Below are positions 17,704 through 53,076 of a stretch of 64,000 bases of DNA, in pieces. Both the position numbers and the translations under genes were made by a program. The DNA is from Desulfocarbo indianensis. GTDB taxonomy: Bacteria > Desulfobacterota > Desulfarculia > Desulfarculales > Desulfarculaceae. Numbering within the stretch: position 1 is the first letter of the stretch; every line of letters begins with the position of its first letter. The stretch is taken from NCBI GenBank assembly GCA_001184205.1, contig LBMP01000001.1, positions 958,001 through 1,022,000 of the forward strand, read 5' to 3'. The notes beneath the pieces are model-generated. The model was given only the letters and a program-made list of their open reading frames with translations. It was not told the DNA's origin and made no database searches.

Positions 17704-18165
17704 ATGAACGTGGATTTCATCAATCCATTCCTGCTGGCTGCGGTGAGCGTTTTGCAGACCATGACCTTTACCGAAGCCACTCCCCAAAAACCCTATTTGA
17801 AGACCAGGCGCGACCCGGCCGGCGACGTCACCGGCGTCATAGCCATAAGCGGTCAGACCCAGGGCTCCCTGGCCATAACCTTCAGCCGAAGCTGCATCTG
17901 CCATCTGGTGGCCAGCATGTTCGGCGAGGCCGTGGAAACCATCAACCAGGAGGTGAAGGACGCGGTGGGCGAATTGACCAATATGATCTCCGGCGACGCC
18001 CGCCGCCAATTGGCCGAGCGGGGCCTCTCCCTGCAGGCCGGCATCCCCCAGGTCTTCAGCGGGCCGGGCCACAAGGTGGAGCACGCCATTTACGGCCCCG
18101 CCATCGCCGTGCCTTTCCAGACCCCTGGCGGCGATTTCACCATCGAAGTGTGTTTTTCCAGCTGA
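17704..18165 (+). CDS. cheX: CheX-type CheY-P phosphatase
   Basis: A 153-residue CheX protein that removes phosphate from CheY-like receivers in chemotaxis. It begins MNVDFINPFLLAAVSVLQTM, typical of the family, and carries the active-site helix EVKDAVGELTNMISGDARR with the key glutamate and asparagine. The gene stands alone. No good ribosome site precedes the ATG. A separate CheZ-type phosphatase is encoded near 45 kb, so the cell may use two different phosphatases. Confidence 0.88.
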   Translation: MNVDFINPFLLAAVSVLQTMTFTEATPQKPYLKTRRDPAGDVTGVIAISGQTQGSLAITFSRSCICHLVASMFGEAVETINQEVKDAVGELTNMISGDARRQLAERGLSLQAGIPQVFSGPGHKVEHAIYGPAIAVPFQTPGGDFTIEVCFSS

Positions 18166-39818: not shown

Positions 39819-42800
39819 TCATTGGTTTTTGGCGATGGTTTGACGGACCATATCCAATAATTCCTCGCGGTGAAAGGGCTTGGCCAAGAGCCCCTGGGCC
39901 AGCCGGCGCAGTTCCTGGCCGATGGCGAAACCGGTGGAAAGCACGACCGGCAGCTCGGGGGCCAGCTCCCGCAGTCTGGCCAGGCATTGCCCGCCTCCCA
40001 TGCCCGGCATGGCCATGTCCAGGAGCACCAGCCCGATGGCCCGGCCGCGCTCCTGAAAGACTTGCAGGGCCTCCTCGCCGCTATGGGCGCAGAGCACCTG
40101 GTAGCCGGCCTTTTGCAGGGTCCGCCGGGTCACGTCCAGGAGCAGCTCTTCATCGTCCACCAAAAGCACCATCCCCGAGCAGGCGGCGGAGTCTTCTTCC
40201 CTCGCCGCCGGAGCGCCGGGGGAAGCCGGCGCGGCCCCGGCCTCCGCGCCGCCCGGCGGCGTCTGCGGAGGCTCCATTTCCCGCAGCAGTCGGCTGGCCC
40301 TCCGCCCCGCCTTGAATATGATCTCCAACTGGCGGGGGGTGGCGATGCCCTGCTTGGCGTCCTCCAGGGCGATTTCCGCGTTGCCCAGCACGGTGCACAA
40401 ATAATTGTTCAGGTCGTGGGTCAGCTCGCCGGCCGGCGGCGGCGAATGCCCGATCCTCAGCAACAAGGACAAAGGCCCGCTCTTGCCGTCGCGCACCAGG
40501 CTCAGCCGGGCCTGCAGCCTCGTCCTGTGCAAGGCCCCCCCCTGCAGGCCGATACTCACGGCCAGCTCGCCGGGCGCGCCGGTGAGGAGATGCCGCCTGG
40601 CCCGTTCGTAAGCCGGCCGGTCGGAGGGGATCAGCAGTTCGCGGAATTCGCGGCCCAGGCATTCTTCGCACCGCTTGCCCAGAATCCGGGCCATGGCCCG
40701 GTTGGCGCTCAGCAGGCGGCCCTCCAAATCGAGCAGGGCCATGCCTCCCTCGGCCAGGTCAAAGGCCCGGCGCAAGCGGGCCTCGTTCTGGCTCAGCCGC
40801 TCGCGGGAGAGCTCCTCGTAGGTCACGTCGCGGGCCACGCTCAGCACCGAGATCACCCCGCCATGAAGACCCAACTCGGGCAGCAGGCGCACCTGATGGC
40901 GCTTGGCTGGTTCCAGGGGGGGCGGCGAAAGGCTTAAGCGGCTTTCCCGGCCGCTGGCGAAAACCTTGGCCAGCTCCGCCTCCCAGGGCTGGCAGCGTTC
41001 GCACGGCACGCCCAGCTCCCGGTCGGTCTTGCCCAGGATGGCCCGGCGCTCCAGGCCGCTGGCCTTTTCCATGGCGCGGTTGACGCGGGTATAGCGCAAG
41101 GAGCGGTCCAGGCGGGCGATGATGTCCGGCGACTCTTCATCAAGGGCGCGCAGCTCCTGGCTCAGCATCTGTTCTCTGGTCACGTCTTGCAGGCACAGCA
41201 CCGCGCCGCGGGGTCTGTCATCCTGGCCGGCGATGGGATGGAGCTTAAGCAGGTGGAACGATCCGTTGCGTTCGATCAGCTCCTCGCCTGCCAATCCCTG
41301 GTACAGGGCCTTGGACGCCAGTTCGGATAACTGGGGAAGCAGGACCTGCGTTTCCAGGGGCTGGCCCACCTGGGCGGCGGAGATGCCCAATACGCCGGAC
41401 GCCTCGGGCGTGATGCGGGTTATCAGCCCCCGCCGGTCCAGGAACACCACGGCGGCCCGCTGGGCCTGCAACAGGGCTTCCATCTCCGCCTTGAGCCGGC
41501 CCAGCTCGGCGGAGCGGGTTTCCAGCTCCTGATTGATGGTGGCCAATTCCTCGTTGCTGGCCGAAAGCTCCTGGTTGGCGGTGTCCAATTCCTGGTTGGC
41601 CGCGTCCAACTCCTCGTTGGCGGCCTGCGCCTCCTCGCAAAGGGAGACCAACTCCTGGTTGGCCGCCTGCATGTCTTCCACCATCACGGAAAGATGCTTT
41701 TGGGAGGCGGCCAGTTTGCGGTGCAGGCTTTCGCCTGGGCCGGTTTCTTCCAGGCCGGAGGGGGGGAACTGCGCCGGCCGCGGCAGGAAGATCACCGCCA
41801 GATGTCCGTCCAGGGCGCCTCCCAGGCGCTTGGCGTGGATGTCGACCCGCGAGGCGATGCCTTGCTCGTCAAAGGCAAGGCCCTGCACCGAAACCGGCTC
41901 CTCCCGTAACGCCGCCCTGGAAAGAGCCATGGCCAGGCCGGCCCGGAGGCGGGGGTGGGCCATGTCCAATATGTAATGGGGGTCGCGGGCCGGCGCGGGG
42001 CTCAAGAAAGGCTGGCCGTCTCCCAGGATGAAGAGCGCTTGTTTGGCCTGATTCACCACGGCCAAACAGGCCCCGGCCGCGCCCAGGGCGGCCCGCGCCG
42101 CGTCCGCCTCCAACTGGGGCCGGCTGGGTCCTTCCAGGCTGTAGCGGTCGTCCCTGGGCCAGGGCCGGGGGCGGATGCCGCCGGGGAGGCGGGTGAAGAC
42201 TTTTTGCATTTTGTCGGCCACCCGGAATAGCCCGCCCAGGCCGCCCAGGGATTCGCTCTGCCCCAGGAAAAGAATGCCCTCCGGCTTGAGCCCGAAATGA
42301 AAGCGCCCCAGGGTCTGCTCTTGCAGGGGGGCGGAAAAGTAGATCAGGAGATTGCGGCAGGAGATAAGGTCCAGGCCGGAAAAGGGAGGGTCCTGTATCA
42401 GGTTTTGCCGGGCGAAGATAATGCGCTCCCTAATGCGCCGCCTGGCCCGCAGCAAGCCGTCCCCCTGGGCGAAGTGCCGTTCCGCCACGGCCGGATCAAG
42501 TCCCTGGGCGGCGCCGGCTCGGAAAACGCCGCGCCGGGCCTGGGCCAGGGCCTGGCCGTCCAGGTCGGTGGCGAAGATTTGCACCTTGTGCCAATGGGGG
42601 CGGTCCCGCCAAAGCTCGGCCAACAATATCCCCAGGCTGTAGGCTTCCTCGCCCGAGGCGCAGCCGGGCACCCAGGCCCTGAAGCCGGCCTCGGCGTCCC
42701 TGCTCGCCAGATAGACGGACAGGCTGCGGCGCAGGGCGGCGAAGGCCTGGGGATCGCGGAAAAAGCTGGTGACCGATACCAGGATGTCCTTGCAGAGCTT

Positions 42801-43619
42801 CTGCTGCTCTTCCGGGGTATCCCGCAGAAAGTCGAGATAGACCGACGCCTGGTCGAGGCGGTGCAGGGCCATGCGCCGGGCCACCCGCCGTCTTATGGTG
42901 CTGGTCTTGTAATCCCGGAAATCGCAGCCCGTGCAGCGGTAGACCGCCTTCAGGATGCCGTGCAGGGTGTCCGGCGCCATGCTTTCCGTGAGGTCGCGGC
43001 CGGCGTCGCCGGCCAGGCAGCCCAGCGCCTGCTCCAGGCAGGGCCCCAGGTTTTCCGGGGCGAAGGTGAGGTCGGCCAGGCCGGTGGCCAGGGCCGCCCG
43101 CGGCATGGCGGCCCGCCGGCAAGTGGCGGGGTCCTGCACCAGCACCAGGCCGCCGGCGGCCTTGACCGCGCGCACGCCCAGGGCCGAATCCGCCGCCTCG
43201 CCCGCCAGCACCACGGCCACCGCCCCGGCGCCCTGGTCGTGGGCCAGGGAGCTGAAAAAGGAATCCAGGGAAGGGAAGGGGTCCGTTGCACGGTCCCGAG
43301 GGGCGAGCGCCAGCCTCCCCCGGCTGAAGCCGAGCGCCTGGTCCGGCGGGCAGACATGCACCACGCCGGCCTGGAGCTCCTGGCCGTCGGTAGCCTGCCG
43401 CACCTGACAGGCGGCGCCCGAACAGTTTATCAGCGACGGATCGCAATTTTGCCGGGCGCCGTCCTGCCGGACCAGGACGTAGGCCAAATCGGCCGGCAGG
43501 CCGGGCAAGGCCAGGCGCAAAGCCTGGCAGCTCCCGGCCCCGGAGCCGATGGCCACCACTACCGGCTTGGCCCGGCTTTCATCCGGCCGGGAGGGCAGGT
43601 CTGCGGCTGACGAATGCAA
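39819..43619 (-). CDS. CheB-CheR-PAS protein ending in DHp helix and receiver, no ATPase domain
   Basis: A 1266-residue signalling protein. Residues 18-200 are CheB-like, about 210-470 are CheR (VSVTSFFRDPQAF, then AWVPGCASGEEAYSLGI), and 640-720 a coiled coil of NQEL-type repeats. About three PAS domains follow. Near 1064 is a histidine-kinase H-box (GELTHDLNNYL), but only about 84 residues separate it from the receiver (VLLDMAMPGMGGG; about 1148-1262), so no ATP-binding domain fits. In CheB the histidine after the first strand appears replaced (YVLVRQDGAR), so esterase activity is doubtful. The start is TTG, preceded by GGGGAGGGG. Confidence 0.9.
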   Translation of the reverse strand: MHSSAADLPSRPDESRAKPVVVAIGSGAGSCQALRLALPGLPADLAYVLVRQDGARQNCDPSLINCSGAACQVRQATDGQELQAGVVHVCPPDQALGFSRGRLALAPRDRATDPFPSLDSFFSSLAHDQGAGAVAVVLAGEAADSALGVRAVKAAGGLVLVQDPATCRRAAMPRAALATGLADLTFAPENLGPCLEQALGCLAGDAGRDLTESMAPDTLHGILKAVYRCTGCDFRDYKTSTIRRRVARRMALHRLDQASVYLDFLRDTPEEQQKLCKDILVSVTSFFRDPQAFAALRRSLSVYLASRDAEAGFRAWVPGCASGEEAYSLGILLAELWRDRPHWHKVQIFATDLDGQALAQARRGVFRAGAAQGLDPAVAERHFAQGDGLLRARRRIRERIIFARQNLIQDPPFSGLDLISCRNLLIYFSAPLQEQTLGRFHFGLKPEGILFLGQSESLGGLGGLFRVADKMQKVFTRLPGGIRPRPWPRDDRYSLEGPSRPQLEADAARAALGAAGACLAVVNQAKQALFILGDGQPFLSPAPARDPHYILDMAHPRLRAGLAMALSRAALREEPVSVQGLAFDEQGIASRVDIHAKRLGGALDGHLAVIFLPRPAQFPPSGLEETGPGESLHRKLAASQKHLSVMVEDMQAANQELVSLCEEAQAANEELDAANQELDTANQELSASNEELATINQELETRSAELGRLKAEMEALLQAQRAAVVFLDRRGLITRITPEASGVLGISAAQVGQPLETQVLLPQLSELASKALYQGLAGEELIERNGSFHLLKLHPIAGQDDRPRGAVLCLQDVTREQMLSQELRALDEESPDIIARLDRSLRYTRVNRAMEKASGLERRAILGKTDRELGVPCERCQPWEAELAKVFASGRESRLSLSPPPLEPAKRHQVRLLPELGLHGGVISVLSVARDVTYEELSRERLSQNEARLRRAFDLAEGGMALLDLEGRLLSANRAMARILGKRCEECLGREFRELLIPSDRPAYERARRHLLTGAPGELAVSIGLQGGALHRTRLQARLSLVRDGKSGPLSLLLRIGHSPPPAGELTHDLNNYLCTVLGNAEIALEDAKQGIATPRQLEIIFKAGRRASRLLREMEPPQTPPGGAEAGAAPASPGAPAAREEDSAACSGMVLLVDDEELLLDVTRRTLQKAGYQVLCAHSGEEALQVFQERGRAIGLVLLDMAMPGMGGGQCLARLRELAPELPVVLSTGFAIGQELRRLAQGLLAKPFHREELLDMVRQTIAKNQ

Positions 43620-44955: not shown

Positions 44956-46626
44956 TTAGAAGCCCATGGACTCCAGGAGGGAGTTCACCGAATTCTGGTC
45001 CAGTTTGGAGGCTTCCTCCTCTTCTCCCTCGTCCGTGCCCTGGATACGCAGGCTGACCAGGGCCTTGTCCACCTCCTCCTGGGCCAGCTTCTCGCTTTGG
45101 TCCGTGGTCACGTCCTTGCGTTCCGCCTTGACCTTCAGCTTGGAGCCGAAGCTCACCACCATGGCCAGGAGCTGCACCTGGAAGTCGGTGAGAAGCCTGA
45201 CGATACGGTAGATGGCTTGGCCGGAGAGGTCCTGGAAGGAAAGCGCCTCGATGATGCCGTTGACCGAGGAGAAAATGACCCCCATGGATTGATCGAGCTG
45301 CTGCACCAGCTCGGGCTGCACCGTGTTGGACGGCGCGCCGCCCGAGGCGGCCAGGGCTTCCTCCAAAAGGGCCTCCAGGTCCGCGGCCGGTTGGGGCGGG
45401 GCCAGTTGGGCGCTTTTGGCCTTGATGGCCTCGGCCAGCTCGCCGAGCTTGGCCAGGGCCTCGGGGCTGGGACCGGCCGGAGCCGGGGCCGGGGCCGGGG
45501 CCGGTTTGGGGGCTGGCGCGGCCGGGGCCTCGCCGGGCATGGCTTCCAGGGGCAGGGTCTGCTCCAGGAATATCTGGTCCACGGTGGAGGCCATTTTCTT
45601 GATGATCTGCTTGAAACGGTCCTGGTTGGTGGCGTTGAAAAGCACCTTCAACACGCCCTTGAGGTCCAGGTTCAGGAAATTGTCCTCGTCGGGCCCTTCG
45701 CTGACCAGCTGGTTCAGGCCTTGCTCCACGGCCGGACCGTCGAATCCCTTGTCAGCGGCGTCCCACATGGCCTTGATGTGCTTTTTGACGGTCTCGTTGG
45801 TGCAAAGCTCATAGGTGGTTTGGAAAACCAAATCCAGGGGGAACTTGTAGTGGGGTCCGGCCGGCTCCGGTTCCGGCTCCGGCGCGGCCTCGGCCGGGGC
45901 CGAGGTCGGGGCCGAGGCCAGCCCCTCGGCGGCGGCCTGGGCCAATTCAGCCAGCTCGGCCAGGGGATCGTCGCCCAGGCCGGCCAGATAGCCCTTTATT
46001 TCCTCCAGGGCCTGGCTCAGCTTTTGGCGCGCCTCGCCGCCGTCGCCGGCGGGTTCGGCGCTGGCCTCCCCGCCGGCGGGGCTGATCTGCTGCATGATGG
46101 CCCGGGCCTGGTCAATGGCCTCCTGAATGCTTTCGCCCTGGTCCATGATCTGCAAGGTGGCCTGTTCGGTCATCTTGACCACGGATTCCAACTGGTCCTT
46201 GGCCTGCTCCAGCTGCTCGCCGGCGGCCTCCAGGTCCAGGGCGTCTACCTTGTCCACCTTGACGTCGCGGATGGACATGCTCAGGCGTCTGGCCAGGCGG
46301 CCCACCTCGCGGAACATGTCATGGGAAAGCTCGCGGTAAAACTCCTCGTCCTCGGGCGCGCCCGCGGCCGACTGGATGGGCTCCGCGCCGGGGCCGGGCT
46401 CGGGGATCTCCACCTCGGGCCAATCATCATCCAGGCCCGGCTCGCCGGCGGGGGGGGCGGAGGGCGGCGGCTGGGGCAGCGCCTGGGCCGGGGGCGGCGC
46501 GGCCAGGGCCGGGGCTCCCCCCGGCGCGGAGGTGGCCGTGATGTGATAAATAGCCTCGACGGTGCGAATGGTGAGCGACCCGCCGCTGAGTTCCAGATTT
46601 ATCTCGGGAGGTTGTGGTCCTGCCAT
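44956..46626 (-). CDS. cheZ: CheZ-type CheY-P phosphatase with large inserted region
   Basis: A 556-residue protein containing both halves of CheZ. Residues 95-180 match the first CheZ helix (QLESVVKMTEQATLQIMDQ). Residues 441-500 carry the active-site helix with SFQDLSGQ, whose Asp466 and Gln470 correspond to the catalytic pair of E. coli CheZ. The extreme end (SVNSLLESMGF) matches the CheY-binding tail. Between them lie about 260 residues, with a folded part at about 258-362, flanked by Pro/Ala linkers; E. coli CheZ has only 214 residues. GAGGTGAT precedes the ATG. queH ends five bases upstream. Confidence 0.85.
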   Translation of the reverse strand: MAGPQPPEINLELSGGSLTIRTVEAIYHITATSAPGGAPALAAPPPAQALPQPPPSAPPAGEPGLDDDWPEVEIPEPGPGAEPIQSAAGAPEDEEFYRELSHDMFREVGRLARRLSMSIRDVKVDKVDALDLEAAGEQLEQAKDQLESVVKMTEQATLQIMDQGESIQEAIDQARAIMQQISPAGGEASAEPAGDGGEARQKLSQALEEIKGYLAGLGDDPLAELAELAQAAAEGLASAPTSAPAEAAPEPEPEPAGPHYKFPLDLVFQTTYELCTNETVKKHIKAMWDAADKGFDGPAVEQGLNQLVSEGPDEDNFLNLDLKGVLKVLFNATNQDRFKQIIKKMASTVDQIFLEQTLPLEAMPGEAPAAPAPKPAPAPAPAPAGPSPEALAKLGELAEAIKAKSAQLAPPQPAADLEALLEEALAASGGAPSNTVQPELVQQLDQSMGVIFSSVNGIIEALSFQDLSGQAIYRIVRLLTDFQVQLLAMVVSFGSKLKVKAERKDVTTDQSEKLAQEEVDKALVSLRIQGTDEGEEEEASKLDQNSVNSLLESMGF

Positions 46627-49197: not shown

Positions 49198-52100
49198 CTA
49201 GGGTTTGACGAACTTGGCCAGGGACTTTTGGCGTATGGCCACCTGGCCCGAATAGCGGTTGGAGCCGTTGTAGCGCTTCATGACCTTGTTCATGTCCACC
49301 CGCGCCTCCACGTGCCGGCCGGCGGGCAGCCAGGCCTCCTGCATCAGCTCGCGCAGATGGAAGGCGGCCATGTAGGTGGCCATGGTGAGATGGTGCTCCA
49401 GGCGCACGTCCCGGGGCGGCGGCGCGAAGCCCATGCGCTCCATGGAATTGGCGATGAGCGCCTTGGTGGGTTCGTAGATCTGGAAGGGGCTGGCCGAGCG
49501 GTCGGCGTCGCCCAGGACGTTGGCGAACCAGGTCTCCTGGTGGGCGATGGCCAGGAGGAAGGTCACCGGCAGGGTGAAACGCTTGGCCGCGCAGTACATG
49601 TCAAAGGCCAGGTTCTTGGCGTAGCGGTCCAGATCGCCGGAATAGGTCATCTCGCGCTGGCGCAGGAAGATGTTCAGCTTGTCCTTGATGTAGGGGGTCA
49701 TGCGGGCCAGGAACTCGGCCAGGCTCATTTTTTCTATGGCCCCCACCGGCAGCACCTGGCCGCTGAAGGACTTGGGCGGGGCCCAGGCCCGGTCCAGCTT
49801 CTTGAGGGCGTGCTCGTTGGCCGCCACCGCGCCCAGGGCCTCCTCGGGGCTGAAGCCCAGGGTCCGATATTCGCGGTAGAGCCTATCCAGGAAAAGGCCT
49901 TGGGCCTTTTCGGCGGCCGGCTCCACGGCGGCCAGGGCCTTGGCCGAGGGGGGCAGGCCGTTCTTGGCCAGTTCGCGGAAAATCAGGGGATGGCGGCTGG
50001 CCAGGGCGCGGGCGGTCTCGGCCAGATCGGCCAGGTCCCTGGCTTCCACGGCCGAGCGGCCGGCGAAGACCGCGCGGGCGCTGGTGATGAGCACCCTCTG
50101 GGAAAGCCCGGCCCGTTGGGCCAGCTCGGCCACCTGGGCCTTGATCTCCGGGGAGATGGGCTCCCGGGTGGGCCGCAGGGGCAGGAGGTTGACCTCCACC
50201 CGGCCGCTGCCCAGGGGCTCGGGCACCCGCAGGGCCCTGGCGGGCAAATTGATCAGCGGTTCGGGCGCCAGGCGCTGGGCCAGATGCTTCACCACCGGCC
50301 GGGGCGCGGTGAGGGGCACGTCGGAGCGGGTGGCGGTGGTGGGGGTGCTGGGCGCGGCAAAGGTGAGCCCGGTGGCCAGGGCGGCGATGACCGCCCAATG
50401 CCCCACGGTGCCCCGTCCCAGGTCGCGCAGGCGGCGGCGCAGGGCCGCCAGCCGGTCCAGGGCGCGGTCCACCTGGTCTGAATTCAGCGGAGTGACCCTG
50501 ACGCCCACCACCGGCGGAGCGGCCTTTTCGCCGGCCAGGTCGGCCAGGGCCACCATGTGGGCGATGCGGCCCAGTTGCTCCTGCAGGGTGCTGGCCTCGG
50601 CCCGCAGGCGGTCCACCTCGGCCCGCAGCCCGGCCACCTCCTCCTGGTGGGCCAGGCCGGAGATGGTGAGCGCGCCGGCCAGATCGCGGGCCAGGGAGGC
50701 CCAGCGGCCGGCTTCGCTCTGGGTGGCGGCCAGTTCCACCGCCACGGCCTTGCCTTCCAAAAGGTCCAGGGCCTGGCGGGCGCGGGCCGATTTTTCCGCC
50801 GCCAGGGCCTGGCGGGCCTCGTCGCGCTGGGCGTTGGCCTCGTGCATGAGGCGCTTGGTCTCGGTCACTTCGAAACGGGCCTGCTCCAGCTCGGAGCGGG
50901 TGCGGGTCAAAAGCCATTGCTGGTGTTCGGCCTCGCGCCGCCAATCGTCCATCTCCCGCAGGGTGAACCTGGCTTTTTGCAGCAGGCGGTGGCGCTCCAG
51001 GCTCTTGGCCTTGAGCGCGCCGGCCAGCTTCTGGTTGCGCTCCAGCTGGTTGGCCAGGCGGCGGGCGGTCTCCTCGCTCACCTCCAGGCGCTCGGCCAGC
51101 TCGTAGGCCCAGGCCTGATCGCGGCGGGTGACGGTGAGCTCGGCCTCCTGGGCGCGGATCAGGCTGCGCTGGCTGATGGCCTTTTGGCGCAGGGAAAGCA
51201 GGCGGGTCTGGCTGATCTGGCCGCGCCGGCGTTCGTCCTGGTAGGCGCGGCGCAGGCCGGCCAGGCGCCGGGCCGAGCGCACCCTGGCCCGCGCCAGGCG
51301 CTGCCGGTCCGCGGCCATGAGGCCGAGGCTGCCGGAAAGGCGCCGCAGGGCCCCTTCCAGGGGCGCGCGCACGGCGTCCAGCACCGGCTCGGACAACAGA
51401 TCGCGCCAGCCCTGGGCCGAGGCGGCCAGGGCGTTGAGCCTGGCCAGTTGAATCTGCCTGCCCGAAAGGCGGCGCAGGCTGCCGGAAAAACGTTTCAGCG
51501 CCACCGGCGGGCTGGAAAGCTTGCCCGCCGTGGGCTCGGGCAGGCGCGCCCGCAATTGGGCGGCGCTGGCCTTGAGCTGGGCGGCGCGCTCCTGATGCCA
51601 GGCGGCGCGCTCGGCCACCACGGCCAGGGAGGGCAGGATATCCCAGGGCTTGAGCCTGGCCAGCAGTTCCACCACCGGCGCCGCCGCTTCCAAGAGCCCC
51701 AGCCGGCGCTGGGCCAGCTCCTGGGCCAGGAGCGGCAGCTCGGCGGCCAGGGCCTGGGCCTGGGCCAGGGCGGCCCGCTCGGCCTTGCCCGCTTCGCGCC
51801 AGGCCTCCTGCAGGGCCTTGCCCCGCTCTATGCCGACGGCCAGGCCCTGGCGCAGGCGGTCGATCTCCGCCTGGGCCTGTCTGGCCTCGGGCAGCAAATT
51901 CTGGATTTCGGCCAAATTGGTGGAGATGCCCGCGGCGGCCCGGGCCCGGGCCGAGGGGCCGGCGGTGTCGCTCTGGGTCAGGGCCTTGAGCAGGGGGGGC
52001 AGCTCGGCCTCCAGGCGCGCGATGTCGCGGTTAACCTCCCGCAGGCGGGAAAGCGCGGGCCCCACCCGGCCGGCGCGCTTTTGCAGCAGCCGCTCCAGGC

Positions 52101-53076
52101 GGCCGAGCGCGGTTTCCAGGCGCCGGCAGCGCCGGCCGCTCTCGGCGGCCTGCTCCAGGGAATCCTCCGCCGTCTCCAGTGACGGCGTCTGGGACTCCGA
52201 GGCCTCCATGGCCACGGCCGGGGCCAAAAGAGCGGAGGCGGCGTTGAGCAGGCGGGAGTGCAAGAGGCGCAGGGAAAGCTTTTTAAGCACCCGGCGGTCC
52301 ACCAGGGCCATCTCCCGGCGCAGCCCGTCCAGGGAGGCCTGGGCCGCCTCCAGGCGCTCCGCCTTTTGCGCCAGCTCGTCCTCGGCCCTCTGGGCGGCGC
52401 GCTCCTTGGCCTTGACCAGGGCCAATACCCGGGCGGCGCGCTCCTTGGCCAGGGCCACGCCCTGCTCCATTTCGGCGGCCTTGGCCCGCTGTTTGCGCAG
52501 GCGGAGATTGAGCGCGTGCAGGCGGTGGCCGATTTTCTCCAACTGGGCCGGGCTCACCCGGCGGCCCGAGGCGTCGGCGAAACGGCCCAGGCCTTGCGGC
52601 TCCAGCGCTTGCAGCCAGGCGGTGATGGACTGGACCTGGCTGGCGGTGGCCTCGGCCTTCTGCCGTTGCAGCCCGGCGAATTCCTGCAGCCGGCGGACCT
52701 GCTCAAAGGCCTCGCCCAGGCCGCGCCGGGCGTTTTGTTTTTGTTGGGCGGGCAGCCGGCGGGCTTCGGCCAGGCGCTGGCGGGCCTTGGCCATGAGGCG
52801 CTGCCGGTGGGCTATCTCGGCGGCCGCCCGATCCTTGGCCAGGCGCTCGCGCCGGTGCAGCAGCTCCAGGTTGGCTTCGCTCAGCCCCGCCCCTTCCCAG
52901 GGGGGGGCGGCCGGCCACAGGTCCTCCAGCCATTGCGCCAGCGGCCTGTCGCGCAGGCCGCTCTCCAGAAGGCCATCCGGCGCCGGGGCCGCCGCGCCTT
53001 GCACGGAGCCAAGCAGGGACGAGAGTTTCTCGACCAGAGCCTGGAGTTCGTTTATGCTGAAAGATGTATGCTGCAT
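49198..53076 (-). CDS. 1292-aa coiled-coil protein with lytic-transglycosylase-like C-terminus
   Basis: A very large protein of unknown overall family. Residues about 60-880 are almost all charged heptad-type coiled coil. A membrane-type segment follows near 890-910 (HWAVIAALATGLTFAAP). After a Pro-rich linker and a helical part, the last 124 residues look like a lysozyme-fold transglycosylase domain: an AIAHQETWF helix with the likely catalytic Glu1181, GDADRSASPFQIYEP, and YNGSNRYSGQV. The N-terminus lacks a signal peptide. It resembles tape-measure-like or envelope scaffold proteins, but no phage genes are near. Start ATG with weak GGAAA. Confidence 0.72.
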   Translation of the reverse strand: MQHTSFSINELQALVEKLSSLLGSVQGAAAPAPDGLLESGLRDRPLAQWLEDLWPAAPPWEGAGLSEANLELLHRRERLAKDRAAAEIAHRQRLMAKARQRLAEARRLPAQQKQNARRGLGEAFEQVRRLQEFAGLQRQKAEATASQVQSITAWLQALEPQGLGRFADASGRRVSPAQLEKIGHRLHALNLRLRKQRAKAAEMEQGVALAKERAARVLALVKAKERAAQRAEDELAQKAERLEAAQASLDGLRREMALVDRRVLKKLSLRLLHSRLLNAASALLAPAVAMEASESQTPSLETAEDSLEQAAESGRRCRRLETALGRLERLLQKRAGRVGPALSRLREVNRDIARLEAELPPLLKALTQSDTAGPSARARAAAGISTNLAEIQNLLPEARQAQAEIDRLRQGLAVGIERGKALQEAWREAGKAERAALAQAQALAAELPLLAQELAQRRLGLLEAAAPVVELLARLKPWDILPSLAVVAERAAWHQERAAQLKASAAQLRARLPEPTAGKLSSPPVALKRFSGSLRRLSGRQIQLARLNALAASAQGWRDLLSEPVLDAVRAPLEGALRRLSGSLGLMAADRQRLARARVRSARRLAGLRRAYQDERRRGQISQTRLLSLRQKAISQRSLIRAQEAELTVTRRDQAWAYELAERLEVSEETARRLANQLERNQKLAGALKAKSLERHRLLQKARFTLREMDDWRREAEHQQWLLTRTRSELEQARFEVTETKRLMHEANAQRDEARQALAAEKSARARQALDLLEGKAVAVELAATQSEAGRWASLARDLAGALTISGLAHQEEVAGLRAEVDRLRAEASTLQEQLGRIAHMVALADLAGEKAAPPVVGVRVTPLNSDQVDRALDRLAALRRRLRDLGRGTVGHWAVIAALATGLTFAAPSTPTTATRSDVPLTAPRPVVKHLAQRLAPEPLINLPARALRVPEPLGSGRVEVNLLPLRPTREPISPEIKAQVAELAQRAGLSQRVLITSARAVFAGRSAVEARDLADLAETARALASRHPLIFRELAKNGLPPSAKALAAVEPAAEKAQGLFLDRLYREYRTLGFSPEEALGAVAANEHALKKLDRAWAPPKSFSGQVLPVGAIEKMSLAEFLARMTPYIKDKLNIFLRQREMTYSGDLDRYAKNLAFDMYCAAKRFTLPVTFLLAIAHQETWFANVLGDADRSASPFQIYEPTKALIANSMERMGFAPPPRDVRLEHHLTMATYMAAFHLRELMQEAWLPAGRHVEARVDMNKVMKRYNGSNRYSGQVAIRQKSLAKFVKP

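Follow-up and report, generated by a model that had tools for sequence, protein, structure and literature searches.

The gene at positions 44956–46626 of the window (the whole stretch of 64,000 nucleotides of Desulfocarbo indianensis DNA that was analysed) encodes, on sequence comparison, a CheZ-family protein with predicted CheY-P phosphatase activity, in which a domain of two repeats occupies the place of the hairpin tip. The properties computed here are the CheZ identity of the protein, the tip position of the insert, the confidence of its fold, its duplication, its conservation, its co-inheritance with CheZ and its separate conservation after loss of catalysis. We propose, at about even chances, that the insert, held on flexible tethers, is a docking domain which positions CheZ and whose function does not depend on catalysis.

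Identity and architecture of the protein

The open reading frame lies on the minus strand, with its ATG at 46626 and its stop at 44956–44958, and specifies 556 residues (Table 1). The original prediction took a protein carrying both CheZ halves to be a genuine CheZ, and the profile searches bear this out: PF04344 matches in two stretches (1.6e-19; 71.1 bits against a curated cut-off of 30.7), and E. coli CheZ (1kmi) is the sole significant relative of the protein in the PDB (7.5e-5). The FQDLSGQ helix and the CheY-binding tail, both read from the sequence at the time, are indeed present and align with their E. coli counterparts. The long hairpin helices (132–181 and 438–502) are present in the predicted structure; all structure models discussed here are AlphaFold2 monomers, either of the full-length protein or of the insert alone. 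A single PF04344 protein, the one described here, was found in the genome, which also encodes FliM, CheA and CheW and has three CheX matches.

With E. coli CheZ (PF04344, 1KMI) the protein shares the hairpin helices, the catalytic FQDLxGQ helix, the C-terminal CheY-binding helix and the order of these parts. It differs in the added N-terminal beta motif and, above all, in the tip, where E. coli residues 87–125 with the CheA-short site correspond to 256 residues with a folded domain. This placement comes from aligning E. coli CheZ to profiles built from the insert-bearing CheZ family: residues 182–437 replace E. coli 87–125, DDWF tip included, and the D(D/E)WF motif (E. coli 95–98) is missing because the insert occupies that region. 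An interruption of about 260 residues at the hairpin tip had been predicted, and it agrees with the alignment in both length and position.

The tip is a region of known function in E. coli CheZ, where residues 70–133, with the aromatic pair 97/98 at the tip, are responsible for CheA-short binding and polar localisation (PMC7750401). CheZ proteins of alpha- and delta-proteobacteria are reported to be without CheA-short-binding tip sequences, and in the alpha-proteobacterial proteins that have no such motif other regions direct polar localisation (PMC7750401). The CheZ of Azorhizobium caulinodans and of other alpha-proteobacteria is like the present protein in this respect. The A. caulinodans protein differs in having a hairpin shorter than that of E. 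coli and no inserted domain, and it is localised by its N-terminal helix and its bundle (PMC7750401).

Table 1. Positions of the cheZ-like gene, its parts, and the PilZ-like genes adjoining cheZ at other loci
Feature	Residues	Position	Strand	Basis
cheZ-like gene with inserted double-repeat domain	556 aa	44956..46626	-	ORF, translation, Pfam CheZ 1.6e-19, full-length conservation in relatives
N-terminal beta module (PPEINLELSGGSLTIRTVEAIYHITA), three short strands	6–31	46534..46611	-	conserved; strands predicted
CheZ N-terminal helix and first hairpin arm	93–181	46084..46350	-	aligns with E. coli CheZ 16–86; helices 91–121, 132–181
Variable stalk/linker	182–257	45856..46083	-	low conservation; helices 196–217, 223–238, then acidic Pro/Glu-rich linker; pLDDT <50 at 242–254
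Inserted domain	258–362	45541..45855	-	pLDDT 95, pTM 0.87 alone; holds all five invariant columns
Repeat 1 of insert	259–299	45730..45852	-	hhalign against repeat 2 profile
Repeat 2 of insert	317–357	45556..45678	-	hhalign against repeat 1
Variable linker/stalk	363–437	45316..45540	-	Pro/Ala-rich, then helices 388–407, 416–427; low conservation; pLDDT <50 at 373–384
Second hairpin arm/catalytic helix	438–502	45121..45315	-	aligns with E. coli CheZ 126–168; predicted helix 438–502
Catalytic motif FQDLSGQ	464–470	45217..45237	-	D466, Q470 = E. coli D143, Q147
CheY-binding C-terminal helix	541–556	44959..45006	-	aligns with E. coli CheZ 197–214; predicted helix 544–553
PilZ-like gene, f38		L104:7250-7603; L105:9327-9764; L106:7017-7415; L151:439-795	same as cheZ	
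PilZ-like gene, f68, after motB and motA		L110:7050-7466	same as cheZ	
PilZ-like gene, f81		L108:6835-7272	same as cheZ	
PilZ-like gene, f2, weak		L098:4797-5165	same as cheZ	

Fold, duplication and distribution of the inserted domain

A folded part at about residues 258–362 had also been foreseen, and the models agree: pLDDT is 94–98 over these residues in the full-length model and 95, with a pTM of 0.87, when the insert is modelled alone. The domain model is mostly helical. It is parted from the hairpin by Pro/Ala-rich stretches of low confidence (242–254 and 373–384, both with pLDDT <50), and the helical segments that flank it on each side are variable in sequence. Judged by profile comparison, the insert arose by internal duplication: a helix-turn-helix-strand unit of about 41 residues occurs in it twice. 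The profiles of the two repeats align over 41 columns, ungapped, with an hhalign probability of 97% (E 1.1e-10), and the alignment score of 47 compares with at most 16.4 across 150 column shuffles. Across the family, conservation of the insert matches that of the CheZ core. Among 49 proteins, five columns show no variation (C275, H283, F295, K344 and F353), all of them within the insert, and the invariance of C275 and H283 extends to the catalytically dead sequences.

No Pfam family matched the insert domain of the window, and a Pfam search of all 49 inserts gave scattered weak matches, with no family common to more than 6 members. One of these, a FliG_N match to a single insert (0.0027), was taken as chance. 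A PDB sequence search with the insert profile returned chance matches only. With the insert alone, Foldseek found nothing at E<=0.001 (best E 1.3) and VIA-align nothing with Z >=5 (best Z 4.7, 89 residues, 4.5 Å, 1vjx); the fold search with the full-length protein returned only generic helical bundles. Assignment of the insert as a PilZ domain was rejected on the mostly helical model and the lack of a Pfam PilZ match. As modelled, the insert appears to be of no recognised family; it should be noted that a missing fold match does not prove a new fold.

The original prediction had mentioned neither the N-terminal beta module nor the duplication, and it saw neither the wide occurrence of the variant nor the loss of the catalytic site in one lineage. 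The module is kept in nearly all family members, and its strands (8–12, 17–21 and 26–30) are predicted with pLDDT 72–85. When the motif was sought in other proteins of 9 genomes, only two chance-level matches were found besides CheZ.

Relatives of the 556-residue protein occur in 37 of 40 related genomes. Among 297 Desulfobacterota genomes, 88 have a CheZ of some kind and 28 match the insert profile, every match lying inside a CheZ-like frame (2 of the 28 frames are truncated at contig ends or interrupted by breaks). With such a spread, the insertion is no accident of a single genome. Some insert-bearing genomes carry a plain CheZ as well. A peptide-pattern scan of genome contigs recovered four close relatives only, and a search of the plasmid collection gave no match. 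Because all 28 matches lie in CheZ-like frames and the domain is absent from Pfam, the insert domain appears to have evolved together with CheZ.

A tree was computed from the CheZ core only, with the insert columns removed and the root not inferred. All insert-bearing proteins fall on one side of a branch (98/99), with the proteins of genomes G140 and G168 among them, and catalysis is lost once (support 100/100). In these two proteins (L124 and L125), the insert is absent and about 110 residues stand in its place; the N-terminal motif, the CheZ core and FQDLSGQ are kept, which shows that the insert has been dispensable at least once. A single gain of the insert with one later loss would be consistent with this tree. 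The original prediction knew of no described example of such an insertion; likewise, no description of an insert-bearing CheZ variant was found in the open-licence literature searched.

Short second CheZ-like paralogues were observed at four loci of families f81 and f68 (L129, L130, L133 and L134). In these, SYQDVARQ replaces FQDLxGQ, so that the spacing of Asp and Gln is kept and the surrounding motif is not.

The sister genus that lacks FQDLSGQ

In g4, a flagella-less sister genus within the same family as the genome of the window, none of the six available sequences has FQDLSGQ (L031, L032, L033, L034, L050 and L051), and the first hairpin arm is partly deleted. A PF04344 search of the g4 genomes covered gave no match, and neither did searches of g4 genomes for FliM, CheX and CheC. 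Identity of the former catalytic helix is 39% within g4 versus 76% among sister genera; the corresponding values are 65% versus 72% for the insert and 86% versus 79% for the N-terminal motif. In two g4 pairs, the catalytic helix has dN/dS values of 0.54 and 0.95, the insert values of 0.27 and 0.47, and the N-terminal motif values of 0 and 0.29, all estimated by a simple method from small samples.

The g4 CheZ-like protein is therefore likely to be a pseudo-phosphatase, to judge from its sequence, and the added modules are probably selected for something other than dephosphorylation. Since these modules remain conserved in g4 after loss of the active site, they would serve in some way for which phosphatase activity is not required, and the insert domain very probably has a function of its own. 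CheA and CheW are retained in most g4 genomes. One genome (G010) has lost CheA, CheW and the insert-bearing protein alike; another (G018) has no CheA or CheW match, yet keeps the insert-bearing protein. A link between this protein and the chemosensory array is suggestive only. With the active site lost and the module kept, g4 is, in our opinion, a natural experiment that parts docking from catalysis, and it suggests a possible reuse of CheZ as a pseudo-phosphatase adaptor.

Possible roles of the insert and its gene neighbourhood

The insert is a ready candidate for what positions CheZ in bacteria without a CheA-short site: this conserved, putative docking module sits exactly where E. coli CheZ docks, and it is found across the phylum. 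In the proposed mechanism, the flexibly tethered two-repeat domain would stand in for the tip with which enteric CheZ binds CheA-short. The insert, and probably the N-terminal beta motif too, would bind a partner in the chemosensory array, at the cell pole or at the motor, and this binding would set the location of CheY-P removal. Docking itself, the partner and the consequence for CheY-P are what we infer, not what was computed; the position of the insert, its linkers and its conservation without catalysis make docking the most likely role. Against it stands the neighbourhood of cheZ in the window, which consists of queH, DUF3786 and HSP20 genes and includes no che genes. Moreover, the invariant Cys and His could serve a ligand or metal instead of a protein partner. 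The G140/G168 branch, whose CheZ does without the insert, counts against docking as well. A further proposal, whose chances we put slightly below even, is that the insert is a new fold that arose by duplication of the unit and that, together with the N-terminal beta module, it equips CheZ for a further task, that of a non-enzymatic scaffold or adaptor; CheZ would then persist as a catalytically dead adaptor in a flagella-less lineage.

The original prediction had named a sensor or a localisation module as possible roles. The flexible linkers on either side, as modelled, speak more for a docking domain on a tether than for a sensor in rigid connection with the helices. In a sensor, a metal, ligand or redox signal received through C275/H283 would alter phosphatase activity allosterically. 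The invariance of these two residues in all 49 sequences, the dead ones among them, the well-folded predicted domain and the hosts, which belong to the largely anaerobic Desulfobacterota, speak for such a role. We nevertheless consider it unlikely, since the Pro/Ala-rich, low-confidence linkers leave no rigid path to the helices, one conserved Cys and one conserved His would make a metal site only with help from the dimer partner or other groups, the structure searches matched no ligand-binding fold, and the domain is conserved in g4, where no active site remains to be regulated. Conservation after the loss of catalysis speaks equally against a purely enzymatic role such as an action of the insert on CheZ itself, by oligomerisation or capping of the bundle, and capping fits less well with flexible linkers. 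In the CheZ dimer both tips lie at the same end (1KMI), so that two inserts would be close together; the insert has an internal two-fold repetition, and in E. coli CheZ activity has been proposed to be regulated by clustering of the protein. Even so, self-association seems to us quite unlikely to be the role of the insert.

That the insert is a neutral, tolerated passenger is extremely improbable. The hairpin tip is permissive for insertion, and two genomes do without the insert, but its conservation equals that of the CheZ core across the family, five of its residues are invariant, and it is under purifying selection without catalysis (dN/dS 0.27 and 0.47; former catalytic helix, 0.54 and 0.95). 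The passenger reading was rejected on this conservation. Very unlikely, too, is a partnership of insert-bearing CheZ with a PilZ-type c-di-GMP receptor encoded upstream, through which c-di-GMP would recruit or withdraw the phosphatase. In f38, f68, f81 and, weakly, f2, cheZ is directly preceded on the same strand by a PilZ-like gene, in which RRxxxR and, partly, (D/N)xSxxG are retained. However, no homologue was found at E<=1e-4 in the genome of the window or in five other searched genomes of the family, the upstream gene of f4 is only doubtfully related, and the pair also adjoins an insert-less CheZ (L151) and is thus not tied to the insert. In the case of the genome of the window, the homologue search led to rejection of a PilZ partner. 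PilZ adaptors that act on chemotaxis or motor proteins are known (MapZ, YcgR), and the adjacency of PilZ-like genes and cheZ in some families recalls them; unlike these adaptors, the insert itself is no PilZ domain, and that PilZ homologue is missing from the genome of the window.

Several observations on gene order may be added. In several families, the PilZ-like gene upstream of this cheZ is often separated from it by a gap of about 4 bases or overlaps it. In the window, cheZ comes after queH and DUF3786, an order that is kept in the family, g4 included. CheX and CheC also strip phosphate from CheY-P and are unrelated to CheZ in fold and sequence. A CheX match (3.6e-23) lies at 17827–18120 (+) of the window, about 27 kb from cheZ; because the two share the window, two kinds of CheY-P phosphatase appear to coexist in this genome. 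An open reading frame of 1292 residues at 49198–53076 (-), for which no Pfam family scored above cut-off, is by eye mostly coiled-coil, with a C-terminal part like a lytic transglycosylase. Another, of 1266 residues at 39819–43619 (-), looks by eye like a fusion of CheB and CheR that includes PAS-like parts and has a receiver-like C-terminal end.
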